Position numbers and translations under genes: made by a program. The notes beneath the pieces are model-generated. The model was not told the DNA's origin, made no database searches, and saw only the letters and a program-made list of their open reading frames with translations. Positions 9,711 through 44,466 of a DNA stretch of 44,466 nt are shown piece by piece. The first letter of the stretch is position 1. The number at the start of each line of letters is the position of its first letter. Source of the stretch: an uncultured Pelagibacteraceae bacterium (GTDB lineage: Bacteria > Pseudomonadota > Alphaproteobacteria > Pelagibacterales > Pelagibacteraceae); NCBI GenBank assembly GCA_902560225.1, contig CACEKT010000006.1, positions 1-44,466 of the forward strand, in the 5' to 3' direction.

Positions 9711-10870
9711 TAGCAAAATCACTTAGTAGACTTGGAACTGAAAGCGCTTTTTCAGTTTTAGCAGAAGCAAAAAAATTAGAGGCAAAAGGTCATCCCATGA
9801 TTCACTTGGGATTAGGTCAACCAGATTTTAAAACTCCAAAACATGTAGTTGAAGCAGCTAAAAAAGCATTAGATGATGGCCATCATGGTTATGTGATGTC
9901 TAATGGTATACCAGAATGTAGACAAGCAGTTACAAGATGGATAAAAAAAAGATACAACACTGATGTAGATTTTGAGAGAATTCTGATAATGCCAGGAGGA
10001 AAACCAACTATGCATTATGCAATTCAGTGCTTTGGTGAGCCAGGAGCAGAAATAATTCATCCAACACCTGCATTCCCAATTTATGAATCTATGATTAATT
10101 ATACGGGTTCAACTGCGGTCCCTTATGACTTAACTGAAGATAAGGATTTAAAATTTTCTGCAGATAAAATTTTGTCTTTAATAACCGATAAGACTAGATT
10201 GTTAATTTTAATTAACCCAAACAATCCAACAGGTAGTTTTGTAGAGAAACCAGAAATAGATAAGTTAGCTGAAGGTTTAAAAAAACATCCCCACGTTACA
10301 ATATTAAGTGATGAAATTTATAGTAGACAAATTTTTGATAATAAAGAAATGCCGACCTTCTTTAATTATCCAGAACTAAGAGACAGATTAATTGTTTTAG
10401 AGGGATGGAGTAAAGCTTACTCAATGACTGGTTGGAGATTAGGCTGGAGTTTTTGGCCAGAGCACTTAGTTGAACATGTAAATAAATTGCTTATAAATAG
10501 TGTTTCATGTGTAAATGCTGCAGCCCAGTTTGCAGGAATTGCAGCTTTAGATGGACCAGAAGATTCAATCCATGAAATGATGCACAAGTTCACAGAAAGA
10601 AGAAAATTAATTCATGAGGGCCTTAATGATTTGCCAGGTGTAGAATGTAGTTTACCTGGAGGTGCTTTTTATGCTTTCCCAAAAGTAATTGAGACTGGGA
10701 TGAATGGTGCTGAATTTTGTAAAAAAGCGATGCACGAAGCGGGCGTTGCAATAGTACCAGGAACTGCATTTGGACAGACATGTAATGATTACGTAAGGTT
10801 TAGCTTTGCAGCTTCTAGAGATAATATTTCTCAGGCTCTAGAAAACATAAAAAAAATGCTAACTAAATAA
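9704..10870 (+). CDS. Class I/II PLP-dependent aminotransferase
   Basis: This 388-residue fold-type I aminotransferase is complete. It has HLGLGQPDFKTP near the N-terminus, the GGKP phosphate-contact segment, NPNNPTGS, the PLP aspartate and tyrosine in SDEIYS, and the Schiff-base lysine in GWSKAYSMTGWRLGW (Lys about 237). The C-terminal arginine that binds the substrate carboxylate is in YVRFSFA. The family includes aspartate, alanine and broad 2-oxo-acid transaminases. Placed among 2-hydroxy-acid oxidoreductases, it could convert the 2-oxo acids they make (glyoxylate to glycine, for example), but that is inferred from context. It has its own promoter candidate just upstream. Confidence 0.9.
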   Translation: MKLAKSLSRLGTESAFSVLAEAKKLEAKGHPMIHLGLGQPDFKTPKHVVEAAKKALDDGHHGYVMSNGIPECRQAVTRWIKKRYNTDVDFERILIMPGGKPTMHYAIQCFGEPGAEIIHPTPAFPIYESMINYTGSTAVPYDLTEDKDLKFSADKILSLITDKTRLLILINPNNPTGSFVEKPEIDKLAEGLKKHPHVTILSDEIYSRQIFDNKEMPTFFNYPELRDRLIVLEGWSKAYSMTGWRLGWSFWPEHLVEHVNKLLINSVSCVNAAAQFAGIAALDGPEDSIHEMMHKFTERRKLIHEGLNDLPGVECSLPGGAFYAFPKVIETGMNGAEFCKKAMHEAGVAIVPGTAFGQTCNDYVRFSFAASRDNISQALENIKKMLTK

Positions 10871-35987: not shown

Positions 35988-36542
35988 ATGAAAACAATTG
36001 AAGAAATTAATCAACATAACGTAAAAAAAATTCTCGCAGAGAAAAAAATTCCAGAGTTTTATCCTGGAGATGTAGTTAAAGTTGGTGTTAGAATTACCGA
36101 AGGTAAAAAAGAAAGAATTCAGTATTTTGAAGGCGTTTGTATTGCAAAAAAAAGTAGAGATTTAAATTCATCATTTACTGTTAGAAAGATTTCTTTCGGA
36201 GAAGGTGTTGAAAGAACTTTTCCATTATATGGAACATTAATTGACTCAATTAAAGTAATTAGATCAGGTAAGGTGAGAAGAGCTAAATTATACTATTTAA
36301 GAGACAGAACTGGTAAGTCAGCAAGAATTGCAGAAAAGATAAGAAAAAAAATTGGGATTGATGTTGATGTAAAACCTGAAACTGTTACTGAAGAAAATGT
36401 TGTTCCCGCAGCAGAAGCTTCTAAAGAAGAATCACCAGCAGCAGAAGTGGCACCAGTAGTTGAAGCTCCTAAAGAAGAAGCACCAGCGGAAGAAACTACA
36501 AAAGAAGAACAACCGTCAGAAAGTACCTCAGAAAAAAAATAA
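35988..36542 (+). CDS. rplS: 50S ribosomal protein L19 with long acidic tail
   Basis: This 184-residue protein starts at ATG 35988 ([11 protein letters not shown]). An in-frame TTG at 35973 is less likely. The L19 core (about residues 1-120) has [39 protein letters not shown] and [20 protein letters not shown]. The usual length is about 115-125 residues. Here a tail of about 60 residues follows, rich in Ala, Pro, Glu and Lys, with repeated units such as [10 protein letters not shown] and [12 protein letters not shown]. The same kind of unit occurs at the end of S16. leuC starts 11 bases after the stop. Confidence 0.95.
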
Positions 36543-36553
36543 TTTTTTTCTCA

Positions 36554-37957
36554 ATGTCTACTACTCTTTACGATAAAATTTGGAACGATCATCTGGTAGA
36601 CCAACAAGATGATGGAACAGCCTTACTATTTGTTGATAGACATCTTGTTCATGAAGTTACTAGCCCTCAAGCCTTTGAAGGCCTAAGAAATTCAAATAGA
36701 AAAGTTAGACATCCAAATTTAACTTTAGCTGTAGCAGATCACAATGTTCCTACAACTGATAGAACCAAAGGCATCTCTGATAAAGAGTCTAAAATTCAAG
36801 TAGATACTTTAGAAGCTAACTGTAAAGAATTTAATATTCAGCTTTTTGGTATGGACGATAAAAGACAAGGGATTGTCCATATTATTGGTCCAGAGCAAGG
36901 TTTTACTCAACCAGGAACTGTAATTGTATGTGGAGATAGTCATACTGCAACTCATGGTGCTTTTGGATCACTAGCATTTGGTATTGGTACTTCTGAAGTT
37001 GAGCATGTATTAGCAACACAAACATTAGTTCAAAAAAAAGCAAAAAATTTTAGAATTAATGTTAATGGAAAACTTCCTTTAGGTGTTACTTCTAAGGATG
37101 TTATACTTCAAATTATTGGAAAAATAGGAACAGCTGGTGGAACAGGTTGTGTTATTGAATATGCTGGGGATTTAGTAAGATCATTAAGTGTTGAGCAAAG
37201 AATGACAATTTGCAACATGACGATTGAAGGTGGAGCGAGAGCAGGATTAATAGCTCCTGATGAAAAAATTTTTAAGTATTTAAAAGGTAAACCAATGTCT
37301 CCAAAAGGAGATAGTTGGGAAAAAGCCCTAAATTATTGGAATAACCTTAAAACTGATTCTGATGCAATTTTTGATAAAGAAATAAATCTTAATGCAGGTG
37401 AAATTTTACCAATGATCACCTGGGGAACATCACCACAAGATGTGATCACCATCAATGATAAAGTTCCTAACCCAAATAGTGAAAAAGACGAAGATAAAAA
37501 AAATTCAATTGAAAGATCTTTAAAATACATGGGTTTAAAACCTGATATGTCTGCAACAGATATCAAAATAGATAAAGTATTTATCGGAAGTTGTACTAAT
37601 GGAAGAATTGAAGACCTTAGAGAAGCTGCTAAAATTTTAAAAGATAAGAAAATATCATCTCATGTTAATGCAATTGTCGTTCCAGGTTCTGGGTTAGTTA
37701 AAGAGCAAGCGGAACAAGAAGGTTTAGATAAGATATTTGTTAATTCTGGTTTTGAGTGGAGAGAACCAGGATGCTCAATGTGTTTAGCAATGAATGCAGA
37801 CAAATTAAAACCTGAAGAAAGATGTGCTTCTACATCAAATAGAAATTTTGAAGGAAGACAAGGTAGAGGTGGAAGAACCCACCTGGTTAGTCCAGGGATG
37901 GCTGCAGCAGCCGCAATATCTGGAAACTTAGATGATGTTAGAAAGTATCAAAATTAA
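36554..37957 (+). CDS. leuC: 3-isopropylmalate dehydratase large subunit
   Basis: This 467-residue aconitase-family protein binds a 4Fe-4S cluster through cysteines in [14 protein letters not shown] and in [36 protein letters not shown] is also present. With LeuD it isomerises 2- to 3-isopropylmalate in leucine synthesis. It starts 11 bases after the ribosomal gene rplS, so it is likely to be at least partly co-transcribed with it, and its stop is adjacent to the leuD start. Length is normal. Confidence 0.97.
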
Positions 37958-38563
37958 ATGCAAAAATTTAACAAATTAAAAAGTATTCCAGCATATTTAC
38001 CTATAGTGAATATTGATACAGATATGATCATTCCAAAACAATTTTTAAAAACTATTAAGAGAACTGGTCTTGGAAAAAATCTATTTTTTGAAATGAGATA
38101 TGATGATCAGGGAAAAGAAATCAATGATTTTGCTTTAAATCAAAATCCATATAATGGGTCTAAAATTTTAATTGCTGGTAAAAATTTTGGATGTGGTTCA
38201 TCTAGAGAGCACGCACCTTGGGCATTATTAGATTTTGGAATAACCTGTATAATAAGCTCAAGCTACGCAGATATTTTTTATAGTAATTGTTTTAAAAATG
38301 GAATTTTACCAATAATTCTTGAGGAAGAAAAAATTAAAGAATTATCTGAATACGCCAATAGAAAAGAGGAGATATCTGTTGATTTAAAGGAAGAAAAAGT
38401 TGTGTATGGAAATAATGAGACTAAATTTAAAGTAGATCCATTTAAGAAAAAATGTTTACTTGAAGGATTGGATGATATTGCTCTATCACTAAAAAAATCA
38501 GACAAAATTGAAAGCTTTGAAAATGATTTAAAAAATACAAAACCATGGATTTTTAATGATTAA
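37958..38563 (+). CDS. leuD: 3-isopropylmalate dehydratase small subunit
   Basis: This 201-residue swivel-domain partner of LeuC has [19 protein letters not shown] near the N-terminus and [19 protein letters not shown], the conserved active-site serine/arginine loop. It starts directly after the leuC stop with no spacer and overlaps leuB by 8 bases, indicating translational coupling. Length is normal. Confidence 0.96.
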
Positions 38564-39662
38564 AGTAAAAAAAAGAAAAATACTTTTATTACCTGGTGAT
38601 GGTATAGGTCCAGAAGTCATAAATGAAGTTAAAAAAATTATTAAATGGTTTAATGACAATAAATCATTAGATTTTGAAATAGACGAGGACCTTGCTGGTG
38701 GTTGTTCATACGATAAACATGGAACGCCAATAACTGATGAAGTATTTTACAAAGCTTTAGAAAGTGAAGTAGTTATGTTAGGTGCAGTTGGTGGACCTAA
38801 ATGGGATAATTTAGAATTTTCTAAGAAACCTGAAAGAGCGCTATTAAAACTAAGAAAAGAATTAAAATTGTTTGCAAATTTAAGACCTGCAATTTGTTTT
38901 GAACAATTGGTTGACGCCTCAACGCTAAAACCAGAAGTAGTATCAGGTTTAGATATAATGATAGTAAGAGAATTAACCGGTGGAATTTATTTTGGTGAAC
39001 CAAGAGGAATTAAACCAATAGAAAATGGTGAAAGAAAAGGAATTAATACACATACATACACTACTAATGAAATAACTAGAGTTGCAAGGGTTGCTTTTGA
39101 TTTAGCTAAAAAAAGATCTAACAAAGTTACTTCATGTGAAAAATCAAATGTAATGGAAGCAGGACAACTTTGGAAAGAAGAAGTTCAAGAACTTCATGAC
39201 AAAGAATATAAAGATGTTGAATTGAACCATATGTTGGCTGATAACTGCGCAATGCAGCTTTTAAGAAATCCAAAACAATTTGATGTTATAGTTACTGACA
39301 ATTTATTTGGTGATATGCTTTCAGATCAAGCATCAATGCTAACGGGTTCATTAGGACTTCTACCATCAGCATCTTTGGGCGCAAAAAACAAAGATGGAGA
39401 GATGAGAGCAATGTATGAACCTATCCATGGCTCAGCTCCTGATATTGCAGGAAAAGGGATTGCTAATCCGATTGCATCGATTTTAAGTTTTGCGATGGCT
39501 CTTAAATACTCTTTAGACTTAGATAATGAAGCTGATATTCTTGAAAAAGCTGTTCAGGGAGTGCTTAACGATGGTCTAAGAACCAAAGATACTCTTTCTG
39601 AAGGAACGAAAGAAGCATCAACCTCGGAAATGGGTGATGCGATAATTTCAAAATTGCAATAA
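38556..39662 (+). CDS. leuB: 3-isopropylmalate dehydrogenase
   Basis: This 368-residue NAD-dependent beta-decarboxylating dehydrogenase has [15 protein letters not shown] at the N-terminus and the substrate region [15 protein letters not shown]. It also has [29 protein letters not shown] and the cofactor loop [18 protein letters not shown]. It makes 2-oxoisocaproate in leucine synthesis. It overlaps leuD and is followed by the acyl-CoA dehydrogenase after 26 bases. leuA is not in this window. Confidence 0.97.
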
Positions 39663-39688
39663 ATCTATAATTATTCTAAGGTCCCCAA

Positions 39689-41644
39689 ATGCCAAGTTAT
39701 ACAGCACCAGTAGATGATATGTTATTTCTCTTTGAAAAATTAAGAGACAACAAAAACTACAATGAATTAGAAAAATATAATGAAGTTAATTTAGATTTAG
39801 TAAAAGATATCTTAGAAGAAGCAGCCAAAATAAATCAAAATCTTATATTACCTTTAGCTTTAGCTGGAGATGAAAATCCTGCCAAATTAGAAAATGGAGT
39901 TGTAAGGACACCACCAGGTTATAAGGAAGCTTACAATAAATATATTGAAGATGGTTGGATATCCTTATCTTGTGATCCAAAATATGGCGGCCAGGGAATG
40001 CCCAAGACAGTGAGTGCATTTTTTGATGAAATGTTATCTGCAACATCTCTTTCCTTTAAGCTTTATAGCGAATTAACTATAGGAGCATACAATTGTATTT
40101 CACATCATGCATCTGATGAAATGAAAGATAAATATTTACCTAAAATGGTTGAAGGAAAATGGAGTGGAACAATGTGTTTAACAGAGCCAGTTTGTGGAAC
40201 TGATTTAGGAATGTTAAAGACTAAAGCTGTAGAACAACCTGATGGTACTTTTAAAATTAGTGGACAAAAAATATTTATAACATCAGGAGATCATGATCTA
40301 ACAGAGAATATTATACACTTGGTTATTGCTAGAGCAGCCGACTCTCCTCCTGGCACTAAAGGCATAAGTTTATTTCTTGTTCCTAAATTTATTTTAAATG
40401 AAGATGGATCTGTTGGTCCAAGAAATGGAGTATCTACAGGTTCAGTTGAGCATAAAATGGGAATTAAAGGCTCTGCAACATGTGTTTTAAATTTTGATGA
40501 TGCCGTTGGATATATGATTGGAGTAAAAAATAAAGGCTTAAGTCAAATGTTTACAATGATGAATTTAGAAAGAATTTTAGTAGGTATTCAAGGTTTGGGT
40601 ATATCAGAAATAGCTTACCAAAATTCACTTGCTTATGCCAAAGAGAGAAAACAAGGAAAAACAAATAATACTAAATCTACAAATGGTGCAGATTTTATAA
40701 TAGAACATGCAGATATCAGAAGATCTCTTTTAAATATGAAGTCAATTATTGAAGGAGAAAGAGCTTTATGTTTTTGGTTGTCCCAACAAACAGAAGTAAG
40801 CCTTAATCATCCTGATGAAAAAGTAAAAAAGGAAGCTTCCGACTATGTTTCTTTAATGACACCAGTTGTAAAATCATTATTTACTGATTTGGCCATGGAA
40901 ATTATTAATGATGCTATGCAAATTCATGGTGGGTATGGCTACACAAAAGATCAAGGAATTGAACAACTTTACAGAGATAATAGAATTACTCCAATTTATG
41001 AAGGTACAAATTCAGTTCAAGCAGCAGACTTAGTTTTTAGAAAGTTATCAAACAAAAATGGAAACATAATTAGTAAATTTTTGGAATTGATTAAAACTGA
41101 ATGTGATAGCAAAAACGAAAAAGTAAAAATTTTTAGTAAGGAATTAAATTATTATTTAGATATTTTATCAAAGTTTACCGATTGGATTAACGATAAATCA
41201 AAAGAAGAAAAAGATGATGTTAGTGCTGCAGCAAATGATTATTTAAAAACTCTTGGATTTGTATCTTTAGCTTATACATGGATAAAAGTTCTTGAGGTCA
41301 GTTATAATGATTATGATAAAAATAAAGATTTTTATGATGATAAAATCAATACAGCAAAATTTTATTTTGAAAAAGTGTTACCAAGAGCAGAATATCATTA
41401 TAAATCTGCAATATCTGGAACTATAAGAGGAATATCGGCATCCTTTCTAAAAAATTTTGAGTTATCAATAACTATTGTTTTTTCTGCTGCGACATGTGCC
41501 CATTTTTCAGCAACAGAACTCCCAGCAGCAAAAAAAGCTATTTTGACAGTTGAAAAATCAAATTTTTCTAGATCTTCAACAATATGCTCCTTACCATTAA
41601 AACTTATTTTTTTTCCTACACTTCTTGATGAAGCTAATAAATAA
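39689..41644 (+). CDS. Acyl-CoA dehydrogenase (DmdC-like), 3' end replaced by antisense asd sequence
   Basis: This open frame of 651 codons has only about 575-577 genuine acyl-CoA dehydrogenase residues. The core shows CLTEPVCGTDLG, ITSGDHD, the flavin region and HGGYGYTKDQGIEQLYRDNRITPIYEGTN with the catalytic Glu438. The extended C-terminal domain of the roughly 600-residue subfamily follows to about FYFEKVLPRAEYHYKSAISG (41419). From there the frame reads through the reverse complement of a truncated asd gene until a stop at 41644, so the last 75 or so residues are not homologous. The subfamily includes DmdC (methylmercaptopropionyl-CoA dehydrogenase), and neighbouring dmdA and dmdB-like genes support that role. 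Only the final few native residues appear lost, so function may survive. Confidence 0.85.
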   Translation: MPSYTAPVDDMLFLFEKLRDNKNYNELEKYNEVNLDLVKDILEEAAKINQNLILPLALAGDENPAKLENGVVRTPPGYKEAYNKYIEDGWISLSCDPKYGGQGMPKTVSAFFDEMLSATSLSFKLYSELTIGAYNCISHHASDEMKDKYLPKMVEGKWSGTMCLTEPVCGTDLGMLKTKAVEQPDGTFKISGQKIFITSGDHDLTENIIHLVIARAADSPPGTKGISLFLVPKFILNEDGSVGPRNGVSTGSVEHKMGIKGSATCVLNFDDAVGYMIGVKNKGLSQMFTMMNLERILVGIQGLGISEIAYQNSLAYAKERKQGKTNNTKSTNGADFIIEHADIRRSLLNMKSIIEGERALCFWLSQQTEVSLNHPDEKVKKEASDYVSLMTPVVKSLFTDLAMEIINDAMQIHGGYGYTKDQGIEQLYRDNRITPIYEGTNSVQAADLVFRKLSNKNGNIISKFLELIKTECDSKNEKVKIFSKELNYYLDILSKFTDWINDKSKEEKDDVSAAANDYLKTLGFVSLAYTWIKVLEVSYNDYDKNKDFYDDKINTAKFYFEKVLPRAEYHYKSAISGTIRGISASFLKNFELSITIVFSAATCAHFSATELPAAKKAILTVEKSNFSRSSTICSLPLKLIFFPTLLDEANK

Positions 41645-41733
41645 AGATTTTCAATCTGTACTCCTTTTTTTTCAAGTACCTCTAATATTTTTCTACCAAC
41701 GTTTCCCGTTGCACCTACAATTGCTATATTCAT
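41398..41733 (-). pseudogene. asd: Truncated aspartate-semialdehyde dehydrogenase (asd), N-terminal third only
   Basis: This leftward frame of 111 codons begins MNIAIVGATGNVGRKILEVL, has the SRSVGKKISFNGKEH nucleotide-binding segment and FFAAGSSVAEKWA. It continues through VIDNSKFFRKDADIPLIVPD, which is the well-conserved Asd sequence. After IVPDI it runs ADL and stops. Complete Asd proteins are about 340 residues. The catalytic cysteine and histidine regions are therefore missing, and this copy cannot be active. The break, at about 41410-41420, coincides with where the convergent acyl-CoA dehydrogenase stops resembling its family. asd is required for lysine, threonine and diaminopimelate, so an intact copy must lie elsewhere, or the junction is an assembly error. 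Confidence 0.85.
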
Positions 41734-41753
41734 GATAATGTCTTATTTTTATA

Positions 41754-42863
41754 CTAAATGAAGGGTAAATCGCAAACTGTTCCTACATATATTTTTTCAT
41801 TGATTTCTATTTTAAACTGATCTTTAGTATTCCAATAAGGTTTATTAATCATTGCGATTCCAACTACTTGCTTAAAAGTAGGAGAGTATGCGGCTGATCT
41901 TACATAGCCAACAATGTTATTATTATCGTCAAATAACGTTTTTTCACAATACATATCAATTGTATTATGATCAATTTTAACACCTCTTAATTTTCTTGTT
42001 ATTCCATCTTGATTTATTTTCCTTAATTTATCCTTTCCTAAAAAATTAACTTCACTATCAAGATTTATAAAGTTATCAAAATTTGCTTCAAAAGGGTTGT
42101 CTCTATTATCAAAATCATTTCCATAAGATAGTAATGCCCCTTCTATTCTTTCAATTAGATTAGGGCAACCTGGTCTTACATTAAATTCTTTTCCATTCTC
42201 AAATAGATAATCATACAAATCTTGACCTGCTTTATCATTTTCAACATAAATTTCAAAACCACCTTGTTTTGACCAGCCTGATCTAGCAATAAAATATTTA
42301 TTATTTTTGAAATCAAAATAACTAAAATTAAAAAATTTTAATTGTTTTATTTTTTCACCAAACAATTTACTCATTAAATCGTTTGAGAGTGGTCCTTGAA
42401 CTGCTAAAATATTTACATTTGGTTCTTTAATCTCAACTTCAAAATTATTTCCTGCAGCAAGACCTTTCGCAAAAAAAATCACATCTGAATCAGCTATTGA
42501 AAGCCACCATTTATCTTCTGCTAATTTATTTATAATTGGATCATTAATTAATAATCCTTCATTATCGATCAGTGGAGCATAATAACATTTTCCAACTTTC
42601 GATTTTGATAAATCTCTACATGTCATCAATTGAACTAATTTTGCTGAGTCTTTTCCTGAAATCTCAACCTGTCTTTCTGCTGCAACATCCCAAACTTGTA
42701 CGTAATTCTTTAAATGTTGATAATCAGCCTCAAGAGATTTAAAAGATGCTGGTAATAACATATGATTATAAACAGTGTAAGAACTAACTCCTTGAGCCTC
42801 TATTCTATCGGTATAAGGTGTACTCCTTAATCTTCTGGATTTAGCTATTGGAAAATTTTTCAT
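41754..42863 (-). CDS. dmdA: Dimethylsulfoniopropionate demethylase DmdA
   Basis: This 369-residue member of the GcvT/aminomethyltransferase fold has the DmdA-type blocks [43 protein letters not shown] and [27 protein letters not shown]. Its length equals that of the Pelagibacter enzyme as I remember it. DmdA moves a methyl group from DMSP to tetrahydrofolate, giving methylmercaptopropionate. A related DmdA-like GcvT paralogue cannot be fully excluded without a tree. The adjacent acyl-CoA ligase and acyl-CoA dehydrogenase genes would perform the next two steps (dmdB, dmdC). It starts 29 bases after the ligase gene and runs toward the asd fragment. Confidence 0.85.
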
Positions 42864-42892
42864 TTTTACTTTCTAGATTTATTATAAAATAA

Positions 42893-44466
42893 TTAGAATT
42901 TTTTTCTTAACTCAAATTTTTGAATTTTACCAGTGGATGTTTTTGGCAATTCACAAAAAATAACTTTCTTTGGAACTTTAAAATTTGCTAACGTTTCTTT
43001 GCAAAAATCTATTAATTCTTTTTCACTAACTGGTTTATCTTTAACCATTTCAATAAATGCACAAGGCACTTCACCCCATTTTTCATCAGGTTTTGCTACT
43101 ACTGCCGCAATAGAAACTGAAGGATGTTTAGATAGTGTATTTTCTATTTCTATCGATGATACGTTCTCTCCTCCTGAAATAATTATATCTTTTGATCTAT
43201 CTTGTATTTTAACGTATCCATCAGGAAACATTACTGCTAAATCTCCAGAATGAAACCAACCACCACTCATGGCTTTATCAGTTGCTGATTTATCCTTAAA
43301 ATAACCTTTCATTACAACATTGCCTCTAATCATAATTTCACCAATCGTTTTACCGTCTTTAGGAACTTCCTTCATAGTTTCAGGATCCATAATTATTACG
43401 CCTTCAGTGTTTGGGTATCTTACTCCTTGTCTTGCTTTTATCTCATTTTGCTTCTCTTCTTCATACTCGTTCCATCCATCATTCCAAGCACATTGAGTAA
43501 CATGACCATATGTTTCTGTTAATCCATAAACGTGCATTACCTCAAAACCAAGCTCTTTCATTTTTTTAAAGATTATACTGGGTGGCGGAGCTCCTGCGGT
43601 TAGAACATAAACTTTATGTTTTAATTTTTTTCGATCACTTTCTGGAGCACCTGTAATCATATTAAGTACAATTGGCGCACCTCCAAAATGAGTTACATCA
43701 TATTTATCTATTAATTCAAAAATTTTTTTAACATCAATATTTCTTAAGCAAATAGTTTTTCCATTCAACATTGGAATAGTCCAAGGGTAACACCACCCAT
43801 TGCAATGAAACATTGGAACAATAGTCAAAAAATTTAATCTATTTGGCATACTCCAAGCAACCGTACTTCCCGTTGACATAAGATATGCACCTCTATGATG
43901 GTAAACAACTCCTTTTGGATTTCCTGTTGTGCCAGATGTATAACTCAATGAAATTGCCTGCCACTCATCGTCTGGCATTTTCCATTCATAATTTTCATCT
44001 CCAGTATTTAAAAAACTTTCATACTCTAAATCTCCAATTTTTTCTAATTTTGATTGGTCGGCATACTTATCGTTTATATCAATGACTATAATCTTTTTAT
44101 TTAAAGTTTTTAATGCTTTTTTTACTTCTACATGAAGCTGTCTGTCTACAACCAACACCTTAGCTTCACTATGTTCTAAAATATATGCAATAGTATTAGC
44201 ATCCAATCTTATATTTATTGTATTTAATACTCCACCAGTCATTGGAACTGAATAATGAGCCTCAAATATTTCTGGGGTATTAAAAGCTAAAAATGAAACT
44301 GTATCACCTTTCTTAATTCCAATCTTTTCTAATGCACTAGCGAATTTTGTAACTCTTTTATAAACTTGACTCCAATTATATTTTCTATCCTCATATACTA
44401 TTGCTTCATAATCAGGATAAACATCTTTAGCTCTTTCTAAAAAGGATAAAGGAGTAAGTGGAACAT
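42893..44466 (-). CDS. Acyl-CoA synthetase, DmdB-like (N-terminus just outside window)
   Basis: About 523 residues of an adenylate-forming acyl-CoA ligase are visible; the reading frame is open to the window edge (VPLTPLSFLERA...). Starting at the internal ATG 44242 would cut the N-terminal domain and is wrong. Motifs are SYTSGTTGNPKGVVYHHRG (ATP loop), YGLTET, the hinge region DGYVKIQDRSKDIIISGGEN and the C-terminal catalytic lysine in PKTSTGKIQKFELRKKF. NTPEIFEAHYSVPMTGGVLN is typical of the medium-chain and DmdB groups. Next to dmdA it is most likely methylmercaptopropionate-CoA ligase. Another acyl substrate remains possible. Only about 10-20 N-terminal residues are missing. Confidence 0.85.
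   Translation of the reverse strand, partial: VPLTPLSFLERAKDVYPDYEAIVYEDRKYNWSQVYKRVTKFASALEKIGIKKGDTVSFLAFNTPEIFEAHYSVPMTGGVLNTINIRLDANTIAYILEHSEAKVLVVDRQLHVEVKKALKTLNKKIIVIDINDKYADQSKLEKIGDLEYESFLNTGDENYEWKMPDDEWQAISLSYTSGTTGNPKGVVYHHRGAYLMSTGSTVAWSMPNRLNFLTIVPMFHCNGWCYPWTIPMLNGKTICLRNIDVKKIFELIDKYDVTHFGGAPIVLNMITGAPESDRKKLKHKVYVLTAGAPPPSIIFKKMKELGFEVMHVYGLTETYGHVTQCAWNDGWNEYEEEKQNEIKARQGVRYPNTEGVIIMDPETMKEVPKDGKTIGEIMIRGNVVMKGYFKDKSATDKAMSGGWFHSGDLAVMFPDGYVKIQDRSKDIIISGGENVSSIEIENTLSKHPSVSIAAVVAKPDEKWGEVPCAFIEMVKDKPVSEKELIDFCKETLANFKVPKKVIFCELPKTSTGKIQKFELRKKF

Follow-up and report, generated by a model that had tools for sequence, protein, structure and literature searches.

Multiple displacement amplification (MDA) produces chimeric molecules, which Lasken and Stockwell characterised in 2007. 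In the sections of that paper drawn on here, 406 of 475 chimeras were inverted, 337 of these having source sites <10 kb apart, and complementary bases were found at the join in 93.5% of the inverted chimeras with sites <10 kb apart (PMC1855051). One laboratory's single-cell workflow, as outlined in extracts of PMC5519541 and PMC9771814, uses WGA-X (an MDA method) and SPAdes in single-cell mode, cuts 100 bases from each contig end and retains contigs of >2,000 bases. For that laboratory's benchmark cultures the quoted mean is 1.5 misassemblies per 100 kb (PMC11247762, excerpted text), a rate at which an assembly of 0.9 Mb would ordinarily contain several. Here we describe a SAR11 contig in which two truncated genes meet at a single point, and conclude that the join is very probably an artefact of single-cell whole-genome amplification, namely a fold-back chimera with an inverted second segment that formed during MDA.

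The window analysed is the entire contig C6 (44,466 bases) of an assembly (G000) of 919,069 bases in 47 contigs, which is 67.4% complete and 0.11% contaminated. In its right-hand part leuB (3-isopropylmalate dehydrogenase, 38556–39662, + strand; NCBIfam TIGR00169, 463.8 bits, cut-off 353.2), the normal left neighbour, is followed by an acyl-CoA dehydrogenase gene (acdh, 39689–41420, + strand) that lacks about 10 final codons. Its product scored above the Pfam cut-offs for acyl-CoA dehydrogenase domains and under every NCBIfam cut-off. From the start at 39689 the reading frame continues to 41644 and encodes 651 residues, compared to 590–592 in 10 same-genus relatives, which matched it over nearly their full length with 69–85% identity. 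Similarity to the relatives stops at SAISG, with the Gly codon at 41417–41419, beyond which the relatives have about 10 further codons (for example SSNIMNFKFN-stop). The rest of the frame (41421–41644, + strand) is a spurious read-through tail consisting of antisense asd.

The asd frame itself starts at 41733 and runs leftward, inverted with respect to acdh. Its similarity to the family stops at IVPD, at codon 41413–41415, which gives a fragment of 107 codons (41414–41733, − strand), codon 107 spanning the junction, and a short spurious tail of antisense acdh (41398–41412, − strand). The fragment shares its first 107 codons and the NAD-binding domain (PF01118, 97.7 bits) with intact asd. Unlike intact asd, it is without the rest of the protein and scores under the cut-offs of the curated families TIGR01296 and NF011456 (131.3 bits for the latter, cut-off 223); as a fragment without the C-terminal domain PF02774, it does not qualify as a functional aspartate-semialdehyde dehydrogenase. 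A sequence-only reading of this stretch had placed the limits of the two homologies at about SAISG (41419) and about IVPD (41413), meeting within about 10 bases. Both limits are borne out, as are its estimates of the missing parts, which come to ~230 codons for asd and ~10 for acdh.

Beyond the asd fragment, also on the − strand, lie a whole dmdA (DMSP demethylase, 41754–42863; NF009133, 553.3 bits, cut-off 410) and an acyl-CoA synthetase gene (acs, 42893–44466; NF006020, 840.8 bits, cut-off 677) whose start-codon end is missing. Going by position, we take acs to be DmdB-like and acdh to be DmdC-like. DmdA is assigned by family, and the genes belong to the DMSP demethylation cluster, the pathway having been described for Ca. 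Pelagibacter ubique (PMC5069961, in part). The spacing between acs and dmdA is 30 bases in the window (42863–42893), and in relatives is either short (~30–200 bases) or ~785–800 bases (e.g. L072 11380–12165), the longer form leaving room for a small extra gene in some strains.

Both genes were found widely in relatives. The asd fragment matched in 36 of 41 genomes (own included), strongly (E 1e-25 or better) in 34 and only weakly in G010 and G017, where the matches probably belong to another family. The dehydrogenase matched in 21 of 25 genomes, again with its own included. Gene order was scored in 42 loci. These comprised 24 loci from named genomes (L070–L093), which were the Pelagibacteraceae/Pelagibacterales entries among the best 80 listed in a scan with acdh (the 56 from other groups were left out), and 18 stretches around asd in same-genus genomes. 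Among these listed matches, 38 of 42 loci contained both acdh and asd; in the other four (L063, L068, L077 and L087) one of the two was absent from the stretch as scored. As L061 and L091 are apparently the same contig (each 107,079 bases long), the 38 loci represent about 37 genomes.

In all 38 of these listed loci the order was acdh>acs>dmdA>asd, collinear on one strand, and leuB preceded the cluster in 36 of the 38. The start of asd lay 2.8–3.6 kb past the end of acdh on the same strand, and in 39 of 40 relatives among the matches listed the asd frame was 330–336 residues long. The exception, L059 (G015:C5), has an asd interrupted by a frameshift or stop, which may be real or an assembly error.

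This arrangement bears directly on the simplest explanation offered for the window, in which a deletion joined acdh to an adjacent antisense asd, removing about 700 bases of the latter. Such a deletion would account for the truncation of both genes at a single point. However, in 38 of 38 listed loci asd lies on the acdh strand, beyond acs and dmdA, and the window keeps dmdA and nearly all of acs in reversed orientation. With asd on the acdh strand in relatives and acs and dmdA between the two, an inversion is needed, and we give a simple deletion practically no weight. An intact asd in relatives had been proposed as a check, and was indeed found, but after dmdA and not, as suggested, between acdh and dmdA.

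The source of both sides of the junction could be followed in L070, isolate AG-333-P05, a very close relative among the matches listed, which has the intact normal order. A literature search with this isolate name found no paper. Window 36001–41420 corresponds to L070 4313–9732 in forward orientation (99.15% identity), and window 41414–44466 corresponds to L070 12863–9810 reversed (97.1%), so that the segment of acs, dmdA and the 5′ part of asd is turned around onto acdh relative to its genomic orientation. DNA identity by gene was 99.0% for leuC, 99.2% for leuB, 99.2% for acdh (L070 8001–9725), 98.9% for acs, 94.4% for dmdA and 97.4% for the asd part. The values for acdh and acs indicate that both sides of the junction derive from one kind of genome, and the lower values for dmdA and asd fit the wider spread of those genes among relatives. 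Within acs of L070 (9812–11384) there is a one-base indel compared to the window, and the protein match breaks after residue 307; this is a frameshift, or an error in the AG-333-P05 assembly.

At the junction (41414–41420) the two alignments overlap. The window matches acdh of L070 through 41415 and again at 41417–41420, with a single mismatch at 41416, and it matches the reversed asd from 41414 onward. The shared sequence is therefore either 2 exact bases (TC) or 7 bases with one mismatch (TC[T/A]GGAA), which confirms that the two homologies meet within the expected 10 or so bases. An exact overlap of just 2 bases compared to L070 often arises by chance, and this counts against the amplification artefact. 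Among the matches listed, TCTGGAA occurs at the acdh site in 23 of 40 relatives, and the strain itself may have had 7 exact shared bases, with TCT in place of the TCA of L070.

In its structure the join resembles the inverted MDA chimeras described in the sections of PMC1855051 used here: the second segment is inverted, a few bases are shared, the source sites (L070 9732 and 12863) are ~3.1 kb apart, within the 10-kb range, and the join is found in one genome only. It differs from those chimeras in being known from a finished contig and not from a read, where the strand switch itself is not observable. The junction pattern was present in 1 of 399 genomes of the genus, its own, with ≤3 mismatches allowed; since sequence divergence could hide it in others, more weight attaches to the gene-order count.

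An amplification origin would proceed as follows. During MDA by phi29 polymerase, the 3′ end growing rightward through acdh would be displaced, and would re-anneal through TC, or possibly TCTGGAA, to a strand displaced from that molecule at asd, ~3.1 kb downstream. Extension would then run backwards through the 5′ part of asd, dmdA and acs towards acdh. The assembler would follow this chimeric molecule and halt where it folds back onto acdh sequence already used, after which the pipeline would trim 100 bases. On this account the event belongs to the amplification reaction and not to the cell, whose own order would be leuB>acdh>acs>dmdA>asd, neither gene being truncated. The sequence-only reading had named a chimeric join as its alternative to deletion, and this is the part that gains support, narrowed to an inverted fold-back made during MDA.

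A technical join could also have arisen with amplification uninvolved, either as a chimera formed in the library or by a mistake of the assembler; the junction's position close to the end of a contig, next to a 3.85-kb stretch absent from the assembly, would suit this. Yet an overlap of 2–7 bases is far below the usual assembly words, so joined molecules probably existed, and a join that is inverted, spans <10 kb and ends at the fold-back point has the MDA pattern as given in the cited sections of PMC1855051. We consider a technical join of this other sort extremely unlikely.

The position of the contig end is consistent with a fold-back during MDA. The contig ends at L070 9810, which leaves 77 bases to the acdh breakpoint at 9732 (82 bases with the acdh match ending at 41415). 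Extended by 100 bases, the window would reach L070 9710, 17–22 bases beyond the breakpoint. If 100 bases were trimmed, the contig therefore stops about where a fold-back molecule would re-enter used sequence.

Signs of such trimming were seen elsewhere in the assembly. Of seven gaps between contigs placed on the relative G012, four were exactly 200 bases (C29–C16, with the last 38 bases of C16 counted as aligned, C19–C36, C28–C31 and C21–C18), and the others, which count against the trimming reading, were 276, 1,071 and 2,511 bases. The 200-base gaps fit trimming of 100 bases at each contig end. We had considered that 77 is also a usual SPAdes word length, as a source of the 77-base distance, and dropped this because the 200-base gaps fit trimming better, though neither is proved. 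The shortest of the 47 contigs has 2,076 bases, which, like the 200-base gaps, fits the workflow of PMC5519541 and PMC9771814. The 24 named relative loci, taken from the best 80 listed, comprise 20 with AG- names, 3 SAG-MED and 1 MED-G42, and we take the AG- names to be single-cell identifiers. From the 200-base gaps, the smallest contig and the names of the relatives, we infer that this is a single amplified genome (SAG) with trimmed contigs. The title of the L070 record begins ‘MAG:’, which counts against the single-cell reading.

A real inversion in the cell would also reverse acs, dmdA and the 5′ part of asd (~3.1 kb), breaking asd and acdh. The breakpoints share TC[T/A]GGAA in inverted orientation, and a short real inversion via this same inverted repeat would yield an identical junction; its far breakpoint would fall in unassembled sequence. 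However, it would break asd, which is required for diaminopimelate (DAP), lysine, threonine and methionine. The inverted order was seen in 0 of the 38 loci among the matches listed, and the junction in none of the other 398 genomes of the genus. A contig carrying a real inversion would have no reason to end at the fold-back point and would continue into further sequence not yet used. The group does have natural strand flips, one of them at the right-hand end of C2, but relatives G006 and G002 share that one. A real inversion is thus very unlikely, and we hold it very improbable that the contig records a dying or auxotrophic SAR11 cell in which such a 3.1-kb inversion in one cell broke both asd and a dehydrogenase of the DMSP pathway.

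The remainder of asd was sought by DNA search in the same assembly. The stretch corresponding to L070 12864–16712 (3,849 bases) was not found there, and contig C29 ends at L070 16713. A search with 4,889 bases of the L070 downstream region matched its last 1,016 bases on C29, and otherwise 24 bases at the junction and three short weak matches. On G012, C29 and C16 lie in normal order. No PF02774 domain, the C-terminal domain of asd (presumably present in argC as well), was detected in the assembly, compared to 14 of 14 control genomes. This absence fits the 3.85-kb gap together with general incompleteness. A full asd elsewhere in the genome had been suggested as a further check, and no second copy was found in the 67.4%-complete assembly. 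As the remainder of asd lies in a gap of a 67%-complete assembly, loss of asd cannot be claimed. The normal acdh–acs join was sought in the assembly as well: its two sides matched C6 41288–41420 and 44376–44466, and the 77 bases between them were absent.

The apparent fusion of the two truncated genes is, then, almost certainly a laboratory artefact and not a real feature. It would be unsafe to infer from this contig that SAR11 has lost asd, carries a split DMSP-demethylation cluster or has an acdh–asd fusion. Two signs seen here could flag such joins in other single-cell assemblies: an inverted neighbour together with a contig end at the fold-back point, and 200-base trimming gaps.

We searched for further fold-backs by comparing the 47 contigs with 1.02 Mb of G012, where 14 of the 47 had no usable block. 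Seven pairs of neighbouring blocks switched strand with reference sites <20 kb apart: the C6 junction, a pair at C6 13248–21020 (its blocks separated by 7 kb of contig), two pairs on C2 and three on C7. The only flip besides the C6 junction with blocks in near contact (within ~100 bases) was that at the right end of C2 (67636/67737). It was rejected as a second fold-back, as the order is natural and common to G006, which matches 3,157 of 3,159 bases of this stretch in one piece, and G002, which matches the first 2,594. Unlike the C2 flip, the C6 junction is without support from relatives. No second fold-back was established among the 33 of 47 contigs that could be judged against G012, which counts against an amplification artefact. 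Many longer-range differences in order compared to G012 were seen, on C1, C2, C7, C12, C17, C30, C33 and others. The C2 stretch (L203 6496–9014, C2 66496–69014) contains a second gcvT/dmdA-like aminomethyltransferase frame of 379 residues, adjoining a 424-residue frame that we take to be an isocitrate lyase; this order is common to G006 and G002, and is not that of G012.

Two genes of the inverted segment vary among relatives. Protein identity to relatives L052–L093 falls into two groups both for dmdA (62–69% and 80–98%) and for the asd part (56–71% and 76–96%), and the two groupings do not always go together, while leuB is steady at 83–100%. At the junction site asd has two forms, ..IPL.VPEVN and ..VPLIVPQVN. 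Judged from these comparisons, recombination seems to have replaced alleles in the asd–dmdA block.
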